This document shows positions 8,706 to 19,846 of a stretch of DNA of 64,000 nucleotides, in pieces. The notes below the pieces were generated by a model. That model did not search any database. It saw only the letters and a list, made by a program, of their open reading frames with translations, and was not told where the DNA came from. The DNA comes from Spirochaetales bacterium (GTDB lineage Bacteria; Spirochaetota; Spirochaetia; DSM-2461). Position 1 is the first letter of the stretch; every line of letters begins with the position of its first letter. Made by a program: the position numbers and the translations under genes. The stretch lies in the NCBI GenBank assembly GCA_028533045.1, contig JAQQAP010000038.1:1-64000 (forward strand), in the 5' to 3' direction.

Positions 8706-9140
8706 ATGAAACTTGCCAGGAAATCAAAAGTAGAAGGATGTACCTGTGAACCGGTAACTATGGCTGATTTGGAAGCCGTTGTATCTACAGCGGAAGAAAT
8801 GTTCGCTATCCTTAAAAAGAAGGATGCGTTAGGTCTGGCCGCTCCACAAGTTAGGATTTTTAAGAAATTCTTCATTATGAAATCTTACAACGGAGAAAAG
8901 TACCAGCTTATCATTAACCCTGAAATCATCCAGGAAAGTCCTAAAATGGGATCATTTCAAGAAGGATGTTTAACCTATCCGGGGGAAACGGCGGTGGTAA
9001 AGCGTCCTAAACAGTGTAAAGTCCGATGGATGAACGCGGACGGGAATATGAGGTCTGCCAAGTTGACCGGGAGAGAAAGTCAGATTTTTCTCCACGAATT
9101 CGATCATTTGGAAGGTATTACAATATTCACAAAAAAATAG
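8706..9140 (+). CDS. def: Peptide deformylase
   Basis: 144 residues with all three diagnostic motifs in order: GLAAPQV (Gln48), EGCLTYPG (Cys88) and HEFDHLEG (His130, Glu131, His134). These bind the catalytic metal in Def enzymes, which remove formyl groups from nascent N-terminal methionine. Slightly short compared with bacterial enzymes (about 165-190), as is usual for phage versions. It may help late protein synthesis or replace a limiting host enzyme. ATG directly follows the preceding TAG with GGAG-like context. Confidence 0.9.
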   Translation: MKLARKSKVEGCTCEPVTMADLEAVVSTAEEMFAILKKKDALGLAAPQVRIFKKFFIMKSYNGEKYQLIINPEIIQESPKMGSFQEGCLTYPGETAVVKRPKQCKVRWMNADGNMRSAKLTGRESQIFLHEFDHLEGITIFTKK

Positions 9141-11922: not shown

Positions 11923-13365
11923 ATGGATAATGCTATTCTTAATGATTTTGGCTTTGGTGCTTTTGGTAGTGCAAGCTCCGGGTTCAACACCGGACAGGCC
12001 GAAGCACTGGTAAAAGCCCTTGAAGTCGGGGATTCTGCTAATCCCGGAGATATGGGAACTGGTGGTAACACACTACAATTTGAATCCCTTGAAGCTCAGC
12101 TTGTATCTGCCCTGAATGAAAACGTCCAGGATTTCAAGCTTATGAAGCTACAGCCGAAGAAGAATGTAGGTTCTACCGTTCATCAGTACACACAGGAAAC
12201 CGATTCCGGTGAATATGATGCTATCGCCACTTCTGAACTTGGTGATCCCATCGAGTCTTCCAGTGATTTTGCTCGTATCACCAGAAATATCAAATATTTT
12301 CAGACCAAGAGAGAAGCTTCCTTGCAAGCAAACCTTCTGAATCCTATTGTGGGATCAGCCAAGGCCGAAGCTGTAGAGGAAAGACTTGGTACTCACGTAC
12401 TCCTGAAAGGTACTGAATATCTTTGTTTCCATGGTAATGAATCTGTTTCTACCAATCAGCCTAACGGTTATCCTCAGATGATCAGAAACGAAGCTCCCGA
12501 TAACGTTCTTGATATGTCAGGTACAAGAATTACTGACAGTGAAAGCACCTTTGAAGAAGCTATCAGAACTGTTTATGAGCAAGGTGGAGAAATATCTGAT
12601 GCTTTCTTTCCCCCTATTCTGGCCCAGGATTGGCAAGACCTTCTCAAAGATCGATACCGATACAATGAAGGGTCCAAGACTGCCGGTAGCAAACTGACCA
12701 CCTATCAGTCTATGTATGGCAATGATATCTTTATCTCTGGCCGTGCCGGTATTGATAAGATGTATAAGGTGAAGACCGTTCCTACTGCTTCCACCAATGC
12801 CAATGCTCCCAGTGCGCCTACTTTCGCTCTGGTCGCCCAGTCTCTTTCCGGTGATGGAACTGGATTTGACGCTGACACTGCTGGTACTTATCGGTATACT
12901 GTTTATGCCGTTGACGCCGAAGGTCGTGTTTCTGCCGCCGCAACAGCCGCTAATGTAGCTGTGGCTTCTGGTGAAGAGGCTCAGGTAACGATTACCCGTG
13001 GGGACGCTGTAAACGGTGCTTATGCTACTGGTTACATTGTATGCCGTGGTAAGAAAGACGTAACTACCGGTGACGATATCCGTGAAATGTATCGTGTCGC
13101 GGCTTCCGGCTCTGCCGATACCGTTACTCTTGATACAAACGATGAACTGCCCGGTACTGCTGAAATCCTTCTGCTTTCTTCTAACCAGGTTCAGGATACT
13201 TACCAGTGGGATTCCTTCTGTGACCTCAAGAGATTCAATCTCGGAGCTACCAGAGCTTCCATCCCCTTCCTTCTGGTATGGTATGGAACTCCTGACCTTA
13301 AGATCGCCAAGCGCAACGCTCTGATTAAGAACGTTGGTCACTCTGGCGTTTCTGATTGGTTCTAA
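11923..13365 (+). CDS. Major capsid protein
   Basis: 480 residues, HK97-like by position and length. Residues 36-55 contain NPGDMGTGGNTLQFES, nearly identical to a motif in the preceding protease, which suggests N-terminal processing near residue 52. Residues about 285-415 appear to be an inserted Ig/FN3-like domain (GTYRYTVYAVDAEGRVSAAA) exposed on the capsid surface. The end (ATRASIPFLLVWYGTPDLKI) returns to a shell-like sequence. Strong ribosome binding site; expected to be the most abundant protein. Confidence 0.8.
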   Translation: MDNAILNDFGFGAFGSASSGFNTGQAEALVKALEVGDSANPGDMGTGGNTLQFESLEAQLVSALNENVQDFKLMKLQPKKNVGSTVHQYTQETDSGEYDAIATSELGDPIESSSDFARITRNIKYFQTKREASLQANLLNPIVGSAKAEAVEERLGTHVLLKGTEYLCFHGNESVSTNQPNGYPQMIRNEAPDNVLDMSGTRITDSESTFEEAIRTVYEQGGEISDAFFPPILAQDWQDLLKDRYRYNEGSKTAGSKLTTYQSMYGNDIFISGRAGIDKMYKVKTVPTASTNANAPSAPTFALVAQSLSGDGTGFDADTAGTYRYTVYAVDAEGRVSAAATAANVAVASGEEAQVTITRGDAVNGAYATGYIVCRGKKDVTTGDDIREMYRVAASGSADTVTLDTNDELPGTAEILLLSSNQVQDTYQWDSFCDLKRFNLGATRASIPFLLVWYGTPDLKIAKRNALIKNVGHSGVSDWF

Positions 13366-13407: not shown

Positions 13408-13863
13408 ATGACAGATTTAAGTGAATTAAGCCTACCCGAACTGAAAGAAGTCGCTAAAAATGTTGGTGTTTCTTTTGGTGGAAATATCGGTGAAGATAAG
13501 CTAAGAGAAAAACTTAACGCCCACTTTTCCGAAAACGAAGAATTGACAGAGCAGACCGAAGAAGGTACTGTTTCCCCGGAAGCCCCGGAAGCCCCGGAAG
13601 CCCCGGAAGCCCCGGAAGCCCCGGAAGCCCCGGAAGCCCCGGAAGCCCCGGAAGCCCCGGAAGCCCCGGAAGCCCCGGAAGCCCCGGAAGCCCCGGAAGC
13701 CCCGGAAGCCCCGGAAGGAATGGTCAAGGTAAAATCAGTTCACAACGGTATTATTACTGTAGGAAAAGAGCAGATTGATTTCGGTGGTCCCGATGATGCG
13801 GTAGAAGTATCTGCGGAAGTTGCTGAGAAGCTTTGTTCTCTGAAAGGGTATGAAAAGTGTTAA
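13408..13863 (+). CDS. HeH-like N-terminus, Pro-Glu-Ala repeat protein
   Basis: 151 residues. Residues 1-40 ([20 protein letters not shown]) resemble a HeH/SAP-type helical domain. Residues about 57-103 are a perfect Pro-Glu-Ala tandem repeat. The C-terminal 45 residues are beta-rich ([20 protein letters not shown]). Placed between capsid and connector genes, so perhaps a head decoration or fibre with an extended rod. Exact function unknown. Confidence 0.55.
13576..13716 (+). repeat. 9-bp coding minisatellite
   Basis: Fifteen perfect copies of CCGGAAGCC plus a partial CCGGAA, coding for Pro-Glu-Ala. All copies are identical at the DNA level, meaning recent expansion by slippage or strong conversion. 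Copy number is likely to vary between isolates. Confidence 0.95.
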
Positions 13864-15326
13864 CAACCGCCAATACTGGCAGTAACATAATTTTAACTAC
13901 CTCATTAACCGGTCAGTACATTCTTTACAGGAAACTGAATTCCGGCGATTGGGAACCTTGGACCGGCTCTAGTTGGGGCGGGGTTCCCGTTTTAATAACG
14001 GGTAGTAATTTCTCTGATTATGACCTATCCGATGGGGTTTACCAATATCGCACCGAGGATAACGGCGAATATGATTACTCTGATTGCGTTGTAATCGGTA
14101 GTGATTATGTAGGCTGGACCTTTGACAACTACGAAGTCCCGGAAGGACAATGGGGCGAGATTCTTACGTCAGACGATCTTAGATATTCTTTTCTTTGGGG
14201 AATTGACTTTACCGCTTCCAACGGGGAAGAGTGGTATGAAGTCCAGACGAAAAAAAATATAGAATGGGCCGTATACCAGCTTGAAAAAAAGCTGAATATC
14301 GACATTTATCAACGACAATACTACTGTGATGATGAATTGAACGACGAGATAGAGGAATCCAAATTCGTCAAGAAAGAATTCCCTTATCCCAACAAAAGAA
14401 ATCACAGATATAATATAAGATTACGCCATAGGCCGGTACAGGAAGTTACCAGGTTTGATTTTTATTCTCCTATGGATACCAAAATCATTGACCTCATGCA
14501 GTGGATGCGACTTGATCGAAGAAATGGTCAGTTAAACTTTAAGCCAAGACAGGGTAATTCTCAGACTTTTACCTCTTATTCTTATCCTTGGAATCTTCTT
14601 TTAGGGAATTACGGTTATCGTGATGCTTTTCATATCAACATGAAAACAGGCTACAAAAATGCTGAATTGATACCGGAAGACTTAAGAGAAATAATAGGGA
14701 AGATAGCCGCGCTTAAAATGCTCAATGTTATTGGTGACGGACTTTTGGCTGGATTTTCCAGTTCATCTCTTTCCCTTGATGGTATTTCTGAGTCTTTTAG
14801 TTCTACGCAGTCAGCAACTTCCATTGCTGGTTCATCCCTTGTTTATGAGCATGGCAGGATAGATAAAATGTATATGTTTAAAAATCGATATATTGGTAAA
14901 ACTGTTCTTTCGCAAAACAGGGAGTCTGGGGAACTTCAATTCAAAAGGATTCTTGATGTGTACAAACATGACTGTCGGGATAAGAAATCCTATAAAATAT
15001 GGTTCGGTAAAAAACACATTACGGTAACAGAAGACCACTCGCTGTTTACTCCTGATCTCAAAGAGATTAAGGGGAACGACATAGAGGTTGGGACGATCCT
15101 TGCTGGCAAGGGCTGTTGTCGTGTGGTCACAAGAATAAAACAGGTCAAAAAAAGGTATATGTATGATCTTTGTGTAGAAGACAACGAAAACTTTTTCGCC
15201 AATGATGTGCTTGCTCACAATTCGGCTTATTTCGGTGCCAGGGTCAAAGTCTATCAAGATGAAATAAAAGAATATATCTCAGAAAACCAAAATAAGTATG
15301 GAAATGTCCGAATAGGGGGTATTTGA
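13857..15326 (+). CDS. Head-tail connector protein interrupted by a mini-intein
   Basis: 489-residue precursor from GTG 13857, overlapping the previous gene by 7 bases. Residues 1-85 are a beta-rich domain; 86-321 and 456-489 form the rest of the extein. LSLDGISESFSSTQSAT joined to SAYFGARVKVYQDEI after splicing restores a pattern seen in phage neck proteins. Residues 322-455 are an intein (see separate entry); the mature protein would be 355 residues. Position after the capsid suggests a head-completion role. Confidence 0.7.
   Translation: MLTTANTGSNIILTTSLTGQYILYRKLNSGDWEPWTGSSWGGVPVLITGSNFSDYDLSDGVYQYRTEDNGEYDYSDCVVIGSDYVGWTFDNYEVPEGQWGEILTSDDLRYSFLWGIDFTASNGEEWYEVQTKKNIEWAVYQLEKKLNIDIYQRQYYCDDELNDEIEESKFVKKEFPYPNKRNHRYNIRLRHRPVQEVTRFDFYSPMDTKIIDLMQWMRLDRRNGQLNFKPRQGNSQTFTSYSYPWNLLLGNYGYRDAFHINMKTGYKNAELIPEDLREIIGKIAALKMLNVIGDGLLAGFSSSSLSLDGISESFSSTQSATSIAGSSLVYEHGRIDKMYMFKNRYIGKTVLSQNRESGELQFKRILDVYKHDCRDKKSYKIWFGKKHITVTEDHSLFTPDLKEIKGNDIEVGTILAGKGCCRVVTRIKQVKKRYMYDLCVEDNENFFANDVLAHNSAYFGARVKVYQDEIKEYISENQNKYGNVRIGGI
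14820..15221 (+). other. Mini-intein (Hint domain), 134 residues
   Basis: In frame inside the connector gene. Block A begins SIAGSSLVYEHG with Ser1 as nucleophile. Block B is VTEDHSLF with the TxxH motif. Block F is YDLCVEDNENFFAND, and block G is VLAHN followed by Ser+1. No homing-endonuclease domain fits in 134 residues. All residues needed for protein splicing are visible, so it is probably active, but this is not proven. Confidence 0.9.
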
Positions 15327-16402
15327 TGCCCGTAGGAATCACAGAAAACAGCCCTGTACAGCTTTCTTTAACTCGTAGTAACTTTAATTCTCTCATAAAC
15401 CGGCACTCACAGCCGATCAGATGGCTAACCGCTGAAAAATGCCCTTGCATAGGGAGTAATCAGCGTCCCGATGCAAACTGTTCTTTCTGTAAAGGGAAGG
15501 GCGTAAGCTACGATATAACAACAGAGTGTAGCCAGATAGAAACTCTTAGAGCCGTTGCAGACGGAGTAATTGAGCAAGATAACGTTGTATGGGTAAGAGA
15601 TTTAAAAGGCAATGAATACAGCTTTACAGATGGCGGTTGTATTACTTATGTGCCGGATGCCAAGAGGGGATTTTCTTACAATGTTAAATATACCGAAGAC
15701 ATTACACTTTCAGGAAGCGGCACGGCTACAAAGATTGATACTGGCCTTTATTCCGTGGATCTTCCTGAACAGGTAAAATTCGGATACGTCCAAGGTGAGT
15801 TGCTTACCGTAGAGGCTGAATCTAACGGAGCAACTTTAACCGTTACCGATATATTTAGAAATAGCTTTGAGATTTCCGAAGATATATCTACGGATGTTAC
15901 GGTAACTTATACCTATGTAGAACCGTTTCAATTTGCTTTAATAACAAACAACTTTTCCAGAACAGACCAGAAATACCTTGATGCGATTAACGGCCAGGGT
16001 ATGTTGATCTTCCCCCAAAGATGGGAAGTGACACAAGATGATCTTATAGTTGCGCTCAACGCTACAGAAACGAAAAAAATAGTCTACCGATCAACCGGAA
16101 ATATAGACACTCTTCCGTCGTTCTATTTGTATGAACTAAAACAAGCCTTTTGTATCCGGGATGGGGCAAAGGTAGAGTTTACACCATATACGGATTTTAC
16201 TATATACAAAGGCAATGAAATACAGTGGATTTCTGACAATAAACCAGAAGAAGATGAACAAGTATCAATTACTTATATATACAATACTGTATATAGAGTT
16301 GTTGGCGATATACCCGATCCCAGAACAAGCGAAAACAACAGATTTCCCCGGAAAGTGGCTTTAAAACTCTACACTGATTTCAATAAGAGGGAAAACATAT
16401 GA
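15326..16402 (+). CDS. Putative neck/head-closure protein with zinc motif
   Basis: 358 residues from ATG 15326, GGGGGT upstream. Residues about 38-60 contain CPC...C..CKGKG, a zinc-ribbon arrangement seen in some phage connector proteins. The remainder is beta-rich (VTYTYVEPFQFALI, VSITYIYNTVYRVVG). Lies between the intein-bearing connector and a tail-completion gene. Assignment rests mainly on order. Confidence 0.5.
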   Translation: MPVGITENSPVQLSLTRSNFNSLINRHSQPIRWLTAEKCPCIGSNQRPDANCSFCKGKGVSYDITTECSQIETLRAVADGVIEQDNVVWVRDLKGNEYSFTDGGCITYVPDAKRGFSYNVKYTEDITLSGSGTATKIDTGLYSVDLPEQVKFGYVQGELLTVEAESNGATLTVTDIFRNSFEISEDISTDVTVTYTYVEPFQFALITNNFSRTDQKYLDAINGQGMLIFPQRWEVTQDDLIVALNATETKKIVYRSTGNIDTLPSFYLYELKQAFCIRDGAKVEFTPYTDFTIYKGNEIQWISDNKPEEDEQVSITYIYNTVYRVVGDIPDPRTSENNRFPRKVALKLYTDFNKRENI

Positions 16403-18130: not shown

Positions 18131-19846
18131 ATGGGTGTGAGTCCTGCAACTTTTTCTAGTGCTGGTCAGATTTCACAGCACTACATACCGGGGGCGTATT
18201 CCCGGAACAACTTTTTGACGAATGAGGGCGGCGGCGCATCTACTGGAAATATTTGTATTTTGGGTTATGCCGATGCCGGGGAACCGCAGACACTTTTGGT
18301 GTTTGATTCCTACAATGACGCAAAAGCGGAACTTGAAAGCGGCAATTTGCTGGATGGTATCAAGTGGGCCTTTAATCCTGGAAACGATTATACACCTCAA
18401 CAGGTAGGATGTATGAGGGTAAACCCCGGAACACAAGCTTCCTTGACTCTCCAATCAAGCTCTACTGATATTTTCGGTATTACATCTTTTTCCTATGGTA
18501 CTCCCATGAATCAATTAAGAATCCTGTTTACAACAGGGACGACAACGGGTTCCTATAAGATTGTAACCGATTACAAGGGAGAAGGAACAACCACCGATGA
18601 CATCATCAGAGAGTCCATGTCAGTCCAGTACGTAGGTGGAGACGGGACAGCCGCCACAATTACGATAGGTGAAGACACTTTGACTACTACGGTAACCGAT
18701 GATACCGATAGCAACTTAAGTATCACCCTGAGTGAGTTTTCCACGATAAGCGAATTGGTTAACTTTATCGACAATCAGGCGAATTATACCGCCACACTGT
18801 TGACCACCGATTCTACTGAAAACGCTACCGATCTGGATTATGTAACAACGGGCGATATTTTCTCTGATTCCCTTACTTTGACAAGTAACTATCAGGCCGT
18901 ATATGAAGCTCTTGTAGCTGATTCCTATTTAGGTGACATTACGAAGTCCGGTACAGATAGAACCGTTCCCGATACTTCTACTGATTATGTGTATTTCACG
19001 GGAGCTACCGCCGGTTCTTATACGACTTCCGAGTTTACCGATGCTCTGGAAGCGTTGGAAGATGAAGATATTCAATTAGTATCTACTACTTCTGAAGAGG
19101 CCGCAGTACACCTCTTGATTCGTAATCATTGTGTTGATATGAACTCAGTTGAAGGACGAAGAGAACGCCAGTTCTACGTTGGTGGAGCCGAGAGCGAAGA
19201 TGTTGACGCAGTAACGTCCAGAGCGTCAACCTTAAACTCTAAGTACGGCTCTCTTTGTTCTCCTGGTTTCTATAATTACGATGATAACGGAGATTACACC
19301 TTGTATTCTTCTGCTTATTACGCCTGTATGCAAGTAGGTATGGTATCGGCCCTAAACCTGAATACTCCCACTACAGCGAAGACAATGAATGTTTTGTCGT
19401 GGGAAAAGAACTATACCAGAAGCCAGAAAAACACTCTTATCAAAGGCGGGGTTCTTTGTGGTGGTAAAAACGATCAAGGTTCCTACACAACTATCCGATC
19501 TATCACAACGTACCAGAGCGCATCCCTACAGCAGAATGAAGCTTCTATCATGAGAGAAACACTTTATCAAGCGGCAGACCTCAGAAATAGGCTGGAATCC
19601 GGTTTAATTGGTGCGCCTAATACTGGTAACTCAACCCTGGCTACTGTGGACTCTATTTTTGAAAGAGCAATAAAAGACTGGTATGGACTGGGAATTATTG
19701 TTGCCGGTGACGATAGTAGCCTTTATCAGAATAAAGTAGTAAGTATCGATGGGGATGTAATAAGCATCCAGTATGATACCTATAACACCGCCCCGGTTAA
19801 CTTTGTGTTTATCACTCACAATGTGGCCGTATATTCGTCTACTTAA
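18131..19846 (+). CDS. Tail sheath protein
   Basis: 571 residues. N-terminal GQISQHYIPGAYSRNNF and C-terminal VDSIFERAIKDWYGLGIIVA fit contractile sheath proteins, with a long variable insert in between (about 120-290). It is followed 11 bases later by a tube-sized gene, the conserved sheath-tube order. It forms the contractile outer tail. Confidence 0.8.
   Translation: MGVSPATFSSAGQISQHYIPGAYSRNNFLTNEGGGASTGNICILGYADAGEPQTLLVFDSYNDAKAELESGNLLDGIKWAFNPGNDYTPQQVGCMRVNPGTQASLTLQSSSTDIFGITSFSYGTPMNQLRILFTTGTTTGSYKIVTDYKGEGTTTDDIIRESMSVQYVGGDGTAATITIGEDTLTTTVTDDTDSNLSITLSEFSTISELVNFIDNQANYTATLLTTDSTENATDLDYVTTGDIFSDSLTLTSNYQAVYEALVADSYLGDITKSGTDRTVPDTSTDYVYFTGATAGSYTTSEFTDALEALEDEDIQLVSTTSEEAAVHLLIRNHCVDMNSVEGRRERQFYVGGAESEDVDAVTSRASTLNSKYGSLCSPGFYNYDDNGDYTLYSSAYYACMQVGMVSALNLNTPTTAKTMNVLSWEKNYTRSQKNTLIKGGVLCGGKNDQGSYTTIRSITTYQSASLQQNEASIMRETLYQAADLRNRLESGLIGAPNTGNSTLATVDSIFERAIKDWYGLGIIVAGDDSSLYQNKVVSIDGDVISIQYDTYNTAPVNFVFITHNVAVYSST

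Follow-up and report, generated by a model that had tools for sequence, protein, structure and literature searches.

Mycobacteriophage inteins are reported to favor nucleic acid-binding proteins and functional motifs, and all of the intein-containing phage proteins analyzed in PMC5050341 are said there to bind nucleic acid. The same paper tabulates six portal-protein inteins for the cluster C1 mycobacteriophages. PMC4031507 mentions mini-inteins down to 134 residues as the lower end of natural sizes and counts the block F histidine position among the less conserved ones. The NX motif, a histidine after lysine or arginine, is described as the signature of inteins with serine at positions 1 and +1 (PMC10189870). 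In the neck of Staphylococcus phage 812, residues 265-272 of the adaptor gp96 are reported to form loops that contact the minor groove of the DNA at the chamber exit in a genome-release intermediate, with Met269 and Tyr270 placed against the sugars; a further DNA contact comes from Glu254 in the hairpin tube (PMC12886913).

The stretch of DNA analyzed here (the window) is 64,000 nucleotides long and carries an insert whose nearest intein in phage records lies in the PolB gene of Campylobacter phage CC_R7 (31-34% identity), followed by the PolB inteins of Aeromonas phages and the TerL inteins of Kuttervirus phages. The CC_R7 and Aes123 PolB inteins share with the insert Ser1, the (K)H of the NX motif, the NFFAND block and the HN-Ser junction, and CC_R7 also shares the block B sequence TEDHS. 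They differ from it in interrupting a polymerase motif (YxDTD|S), in retaining the block F histidine, and in that several are split. The Kuttervirus (Cba120) TerL mini-inteins resemble the insert in being small, residing in a DNA-packaging gene and having no HNF histidine, whereas their Cys1 and Thr+1, their length of 159 residues, their position after ARQSGK of the terminase and an identity of about 24% set them apart. The best reading of these sequence similarities is that the insert is related to phage DNA polymerase and terminase inteins. The cluster C1 portal inteins are likened to it by description in PMC5050341 rather than by sequence; they too occupy a structural neck protein, although a different one. 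Taken as a whole, the locus very probably holds a class 1 Ser1/Ser+1 mini-intein in the adaptor gene of an 83.4-kb contractile-tailed phage with a probable Spirochaetia host, a near-neutral passenger that would have to be excised.

The insert and its empty site in relatives

The open reading frame at 13857-15326 (+; GTG start as listed) encodes 489 amino acids, and a Hint domain of 134 amino acids occupies residues 322-455 in frame (14820-15221, +). The 321-residue N-extein (13857-14819, +) matches phrog_772 with 98.7 bits over residues 90-323, a match that ends two residues inside the insert. The C-extein (15222-15326, +) consists of 34 residues and the stop codon. The profile of the relatives matches the window protein in two pieces, positions 13-341 and positions 338-373, with the insert between them; the second piece is the last 36 positions of the profile and corresponds to the C-extein. 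The junction reads SSTQSAT, 134 residues, SAYFGARVKVY. Removal of the insert restores SSTQSAT|SAYFGAR, a sequence present in uninterrupted relatives, and the uninterrupted relative in genome G045 reads SSTQSATSAYFGARIKVY at the site (44% identity over query residues 29-322). An alignment of seven proteins contains a single gap at the junction with the length of the insert, and the aligner sets the shared serine on the N side of this gap, which is an equivalent placement. A Ser1 located four or five residues later (SSLVYE or SLVYE) was considered and ruled out because the uninterrupted relatives fix the junction at SIAGSS. The preliminary description had proposed a complete 134-residue Hint domain at a site that rebuilds a conserved connector sequence on splicing, had predicted a ligated extein of 355 residues and had suggested aligning homologues that lack the intein. 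The domain is exactly where it was placed, the rebuilt sequence is common to the uninterrupted homologues, which do align across the junction, and 489 minus 134 residues gives the expected product.

The site is empty in every relative read that covers it. Scanning viral contigs with six uninterrupted relatives returned 43 loci, 42 of which hold the site, and all 42 (34 distinct sequences) are empty. The scan of genome_contigs returned 20 loci, and the 19 that hold the site are likewise empty (19/19). Genome searches gave matches in 8 genomes of the class (394 searched) and in 11 of the phylum (392 searched), the source genome (G000) among both, and the site is empty in 11/11 other genomes that cover it. 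These three sets overlap (G045, for example, contains the contig of L106), and the counts leave out G068, G368, L056 and L125, the matches in G068 and G368 being without the site. The loop differs in G124 and L107 (STQGVENPYFGAR) and still has no insert, and phages LE1, SPO1, 812, DAC16 and MT835500 have none at the site (5/5). Single-protein scans of viral_contigs and genome_contigs returned no relatives, whereas alignment queries did find them. A search of phage records with SPO1 gp6.3 matched 626 records, few of which are covered by the site-by-site reading. The site is empty in the two closest relatives, at about 65% identity. A tree of 44 rows, calculated without L056 and duplicate viral rows and with viral rows trimmed to their final 390 residues, groups the window exteins with L020 and L039 with 99/99 support, and both of these are empty. 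This distribution would be explained either by one gain in the lineage of the window or by losses elsewhere.

Anatomy of the intein

With the Pfam model PF14890 (Intein_splicing), the insert alone reaches 41.5 bits and the whole protein 35.9 bits, the latter 0.1 bit above the cut-off of 35.8. No other PF14890 match in the 4.2-Mb source genome reaches E ≤ 0.001. NCBIfam TIGR01443 (intein C-terminus) matches the insert with 24.5 bits, above its cut-off of 15.6, and TIGR01445 (intein N-terminus) scores 21.3 bits, under its cut-off of 24.5. The models that match the insert are Hint or intein models plus one full-length polymerase model containing an intein, and no endonuclease model in Pfam or NCBIfam matches its 134 amino acids. 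The sequence thus has the properties of a mini-intein without an endonuclease domain, as had been described.

The insert runs from Ser1 to Asn134. Block A (SIAGSSLVY, 14820-14846, +) begins with the predicted Ser1 nucleophile and aligns with SVVGDSIIK of the CC_R7 polymerase intein. The NX motif is assigned to Lys49-His50 (14964-14969, +) on the basis of the CC_R7 alignment and its position ahead of block B, following the motif in PMC10189870, and E35 and E38 are candidates, by sequence position, for the glutamate in the preceding strand. Block B contains Thr70-x-x-His73 (15027-15038, +), and block G consists of His133-Asn134 followed by Ser+1 (15216-15224, +). Gly4 is present, and none of the four cysteines is at a splice junction. 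Block F (YDLCVEDNENFFAN, 15162-15203, +) was located by alignment and sequence position; it retains Asp116 and has Glu123 in place of the usual histidine. Ser1, TxxH, HN and Ser+1 had all been recognized in the preliminary description and are present; its VEDNENFFAND block also stands, with Asp116, but the replacement of the histidine by glutamate had been passed over. The insert therefore combines an in-frame location with Ser1, Ser+1, TxxH, the block F aspartate, the terminal His-Asn and the NX motif of class 1 inteins of the Ser1/Ser+1 subgroup and departs from them at the block F histidine, which assists but does not define the class. By all sequence tests it is a real intein of class 1, in the Ser1/Ser+1 (oxyester) subgroup, and we infer that it splices.

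Glu123 could slow or spoil cleavage at the C-terminal junction. The missing histidine, together with the lack of a second copy that would show purifying selection, is what can be said for a decayed intein that splices poorly, leaving the adaptor broken or cleaved and the phage defective. This outcome is unlikely, since the frame is open, Ser1, TxxH, the aspartate, HN, Ser+1 and the NX histidine are intact, and conserved residues are kept in both exteins. The block F histidine is likewise missing from the Kuttervirus TerL mini-inteins and, as printed in PMC6892783, from the MIJ3 PolB intein. The locus adds to the known inteins a 134-residue, serine-based example that lacks this histidine.

The adaptor and the role of excision

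The host protein belongs to phrog_772, which carries the PHROG label 'tail fiber protein'. A profile comparison nevertheless pairs it with the phage 812 adaptor gp96 (8q01_b) at an E-value of 1.5e-10. A Foldseek search with the AlphaFold model returned only 8q01_b and 8qje_W at E ≤ 0.001; both are from the phage 812 neck, with modest TM-scores to the neck chains of 0.47-0.49 by target length. As in SPO1, the capsid gene is followed by the gene for a small protein, the adaptor gene, the gene for another structural protein and, further on, the sheath gene. The major capsid protein is encoded at 11923-13365 (+; phrog_752, 164.2 bits; SU10_MCP, 28 bits against a cut-off of 24.1) and the sheath protein of the contractile tail at 18131-19846 (+; phrog_279, 201.6 bits; PF04984, 39 bits against a cut-off of 31.4). 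The gene after the adaptor (15323-16402, +) encodes a CPC-x11-CxxC protein that matches phrog_1004 (head and packaging) over residues 12-68 and holds an SPO1-like position; it is termed a probable stopper (head completion) protein because no PDB sequence matches it. The small gene at 13408-13863, between capsid and adaptor, encodes 15 consecutive Glu-Ala-Pro repeats. Profile match, fold match and a location between the capsid and probable stopper genes, upstream of the sheath gene, identify the host protein from sequence and model as a head-to-tail adaptor of the phage 812 gp96 type, presumably a dodecameric ring. The connector gene named as the host in the preliminary description was thus correctly recognized. 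The profile match, structure search and gene order make the 'tail fiber protein' label look wrong here. The same label is found for the phrog_772 adaptor family among the phage records listed and appears to be a propagated misannotation.

The window adaptor shares its family, gene order and TQS loop with phage 812 gp96 and SPO1 gp6.3, both of which differ from it in having no intein. In the profile alignment the insert lies after the residue aligned with gp96 Met269 and before Tyr270. By analogy with gp96, the intein is expected to occupy a loop that touches DNA, an alignment that comes from one profile match, with the contacts taken from the genome-release intermediate of a distant phage. The adaptor intein thereby fits the nucleic acid-binding rule within a structural ring protein and would mark a neck loop that meets DNA. 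Genes of the virion neck had been called unusual homes for inteins; they are uncommon hosts, but the portal proteins tabulated in PMC5050341 provide a precedent. Among the matches listed from the literature searched, judged mostly by title and start of abstract, none showed an adaptor, head-completion or neck gene with an intein. As far as these searches reach, the insertion site in the neck protein is new and the kind of intein is known, and as an intein host the adaptor is both uncommon and instructive.

In the proposed mechanism, Ser1 would attack the peptide bond that precedes it, the N-extein would be transferred to Ser+1, and Asn134 would cyclize as the exteins join. The product would be an adaptor of 355 residues that reads SSTQSAT-SAYFGAR across the junction. 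In an unspliced dodecamer, twelve domains of 134 residues each would sit at the DNA channel, and a working neck should therefore form only after excision. A homing endonuclease may have been lost or may never have been present, and the intein is most likely retained as a nearly neutral passenger whose precise deletion is difficult. The gene is a natural construct for asking if a ring protein assembles ahead of splicing.

It had also been suggested that splicing acts as a timing switch for assembly. This claim is unsupported, as every relative read at the site, including the two closest, has no intein. Regulated splicing would make the excision an assembly checkpoint, with the precursor unable to build the neck ring before some cue sets excision off. 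The location in a DNA-contacting loop, where spliced and unspliced proteins should function very differently, speaks for such a role, and a comparable one is proposed for the TerL inteins of cyanophage Mic1 in PMC7156551. However, the gene of the relatives read does without the intein, and homing alone would also put an intein in a conserved site, which leaves a checkpoint quite improbable. Its working form, in which the twelve domains block the channel and slow splicing without the block F histidine delays the neck until heads are packed, is very unlikely.

Related Hint domains, contig and other interruptions

A PDB sequence search with the intein found 9hth, the Aes123 PolB1 split intein, as the best match (E = 2.5e-10). 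Ranks two to five are entries of bacterial intein-like (BIL) domains, including 6y75/6tmm, at about 1e-6, and the gp41-1 intein 6qaz matches at 8.4e-6. In the AlphaFold model of the full protein, pLDDT is mostly 24-50 across the intein, and modeling the intein alone with five helper sequences gave a poor model with a mean pLDDT of 59. Foldseek matches of the intein carry little weight because both models are poor. An intein search of 394 genomes of the class found matches in four, the source genome and three weak ones, two of which are Hint domains in other proteins and the third of which is in G156. No second copy of the intein was found in these 394 genomes or in a scan of viral_contigs with the intein alone. 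The BIL ranks in the PDB search, a BIL structure as the first Foldseek match, the Hint domains in other proteins of two class genomes and a PT-HINT score of 25.1 bits, near its cut-off of 27.7, would agree with a cleaving, non-splicing Hint domain of the BIL or pretoxin kind. Such a domain is a highly implausible occupant of this site, as the flanks belong to one conserved family and rejoin exactly, Ser+1 is present, and the intein model scores above its cut-off whereas PT-HINT falls below.

The contig, C38 of the source genome, is 83,536 bases long and ends in an exact repeat of its first 141 bases, the pattern of a circular assembly. It apparently represents a complete, circular 83.4-kb contractile-tailed phage. 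The rest of the contig carries terminase and portal genes, the portal match being below the Pfam cut-off, and no homing-endonuclease family was found in Pfam scans of 47 open reading frames of the contig. The phage also has a peptide deformylase gene (window 8706-9140; PF01327, 114.8 bits). That a chimeric assembly put a foreign Hint sequence into the gene, as a multi-contig source genome with 7% contamination might allow, is scarcely credible given junctions that are exact to the codon, stay in frame and fall where an insertion makes biological sense, the similar G+C contents of 38.8% and 40.5% and the circular contig.

The phage probably infects a member of the Spirochaetia. Of the 20 named genome_contigs loci, 15 come from records titled Spirochaetes, Spirochaetia, Spirochaetales, Spirochaetaceae or Treponema, including G045 from the class of the source genome, and five come from other bins. 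The host assignment is the more tentative because of the 7% contamination of the source genome. One genome of the class that is assembled in a single contig (G314:C1) has an identical adaptor protein sequence at three places (L009, L014 and L015), which suggests three near-identical prophages.

The adaptor gene is interrupted in another way in three Silviavirus phages, where the cut falls 29 codons before the position of the intein, between WG and NLIIGAG. The inserts measure 541 bases in DELF3 (L103, 1356-1896), 444 bases in LJLAME001 (L102, 1359-1802) and 1762 bases in StAP1 (L104, 3059-4820). Unlike the intein they are non-coding, and the DELF3 insert shows signs of a group I intron. Rfam returned nothing at the gathering score in the three loci, and a relaxed threshold, applied to DELF3, gave a group I intron match (33.3 bits, below the gathering score of 50). 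The StAP1 insert contains a 402-residue gene annotated 'transposase' and may on that account, speculatively, be an IStron. The 5' part of the cut gene is annotated as a tail fiber protein in two of the records and as hypothetical in one.
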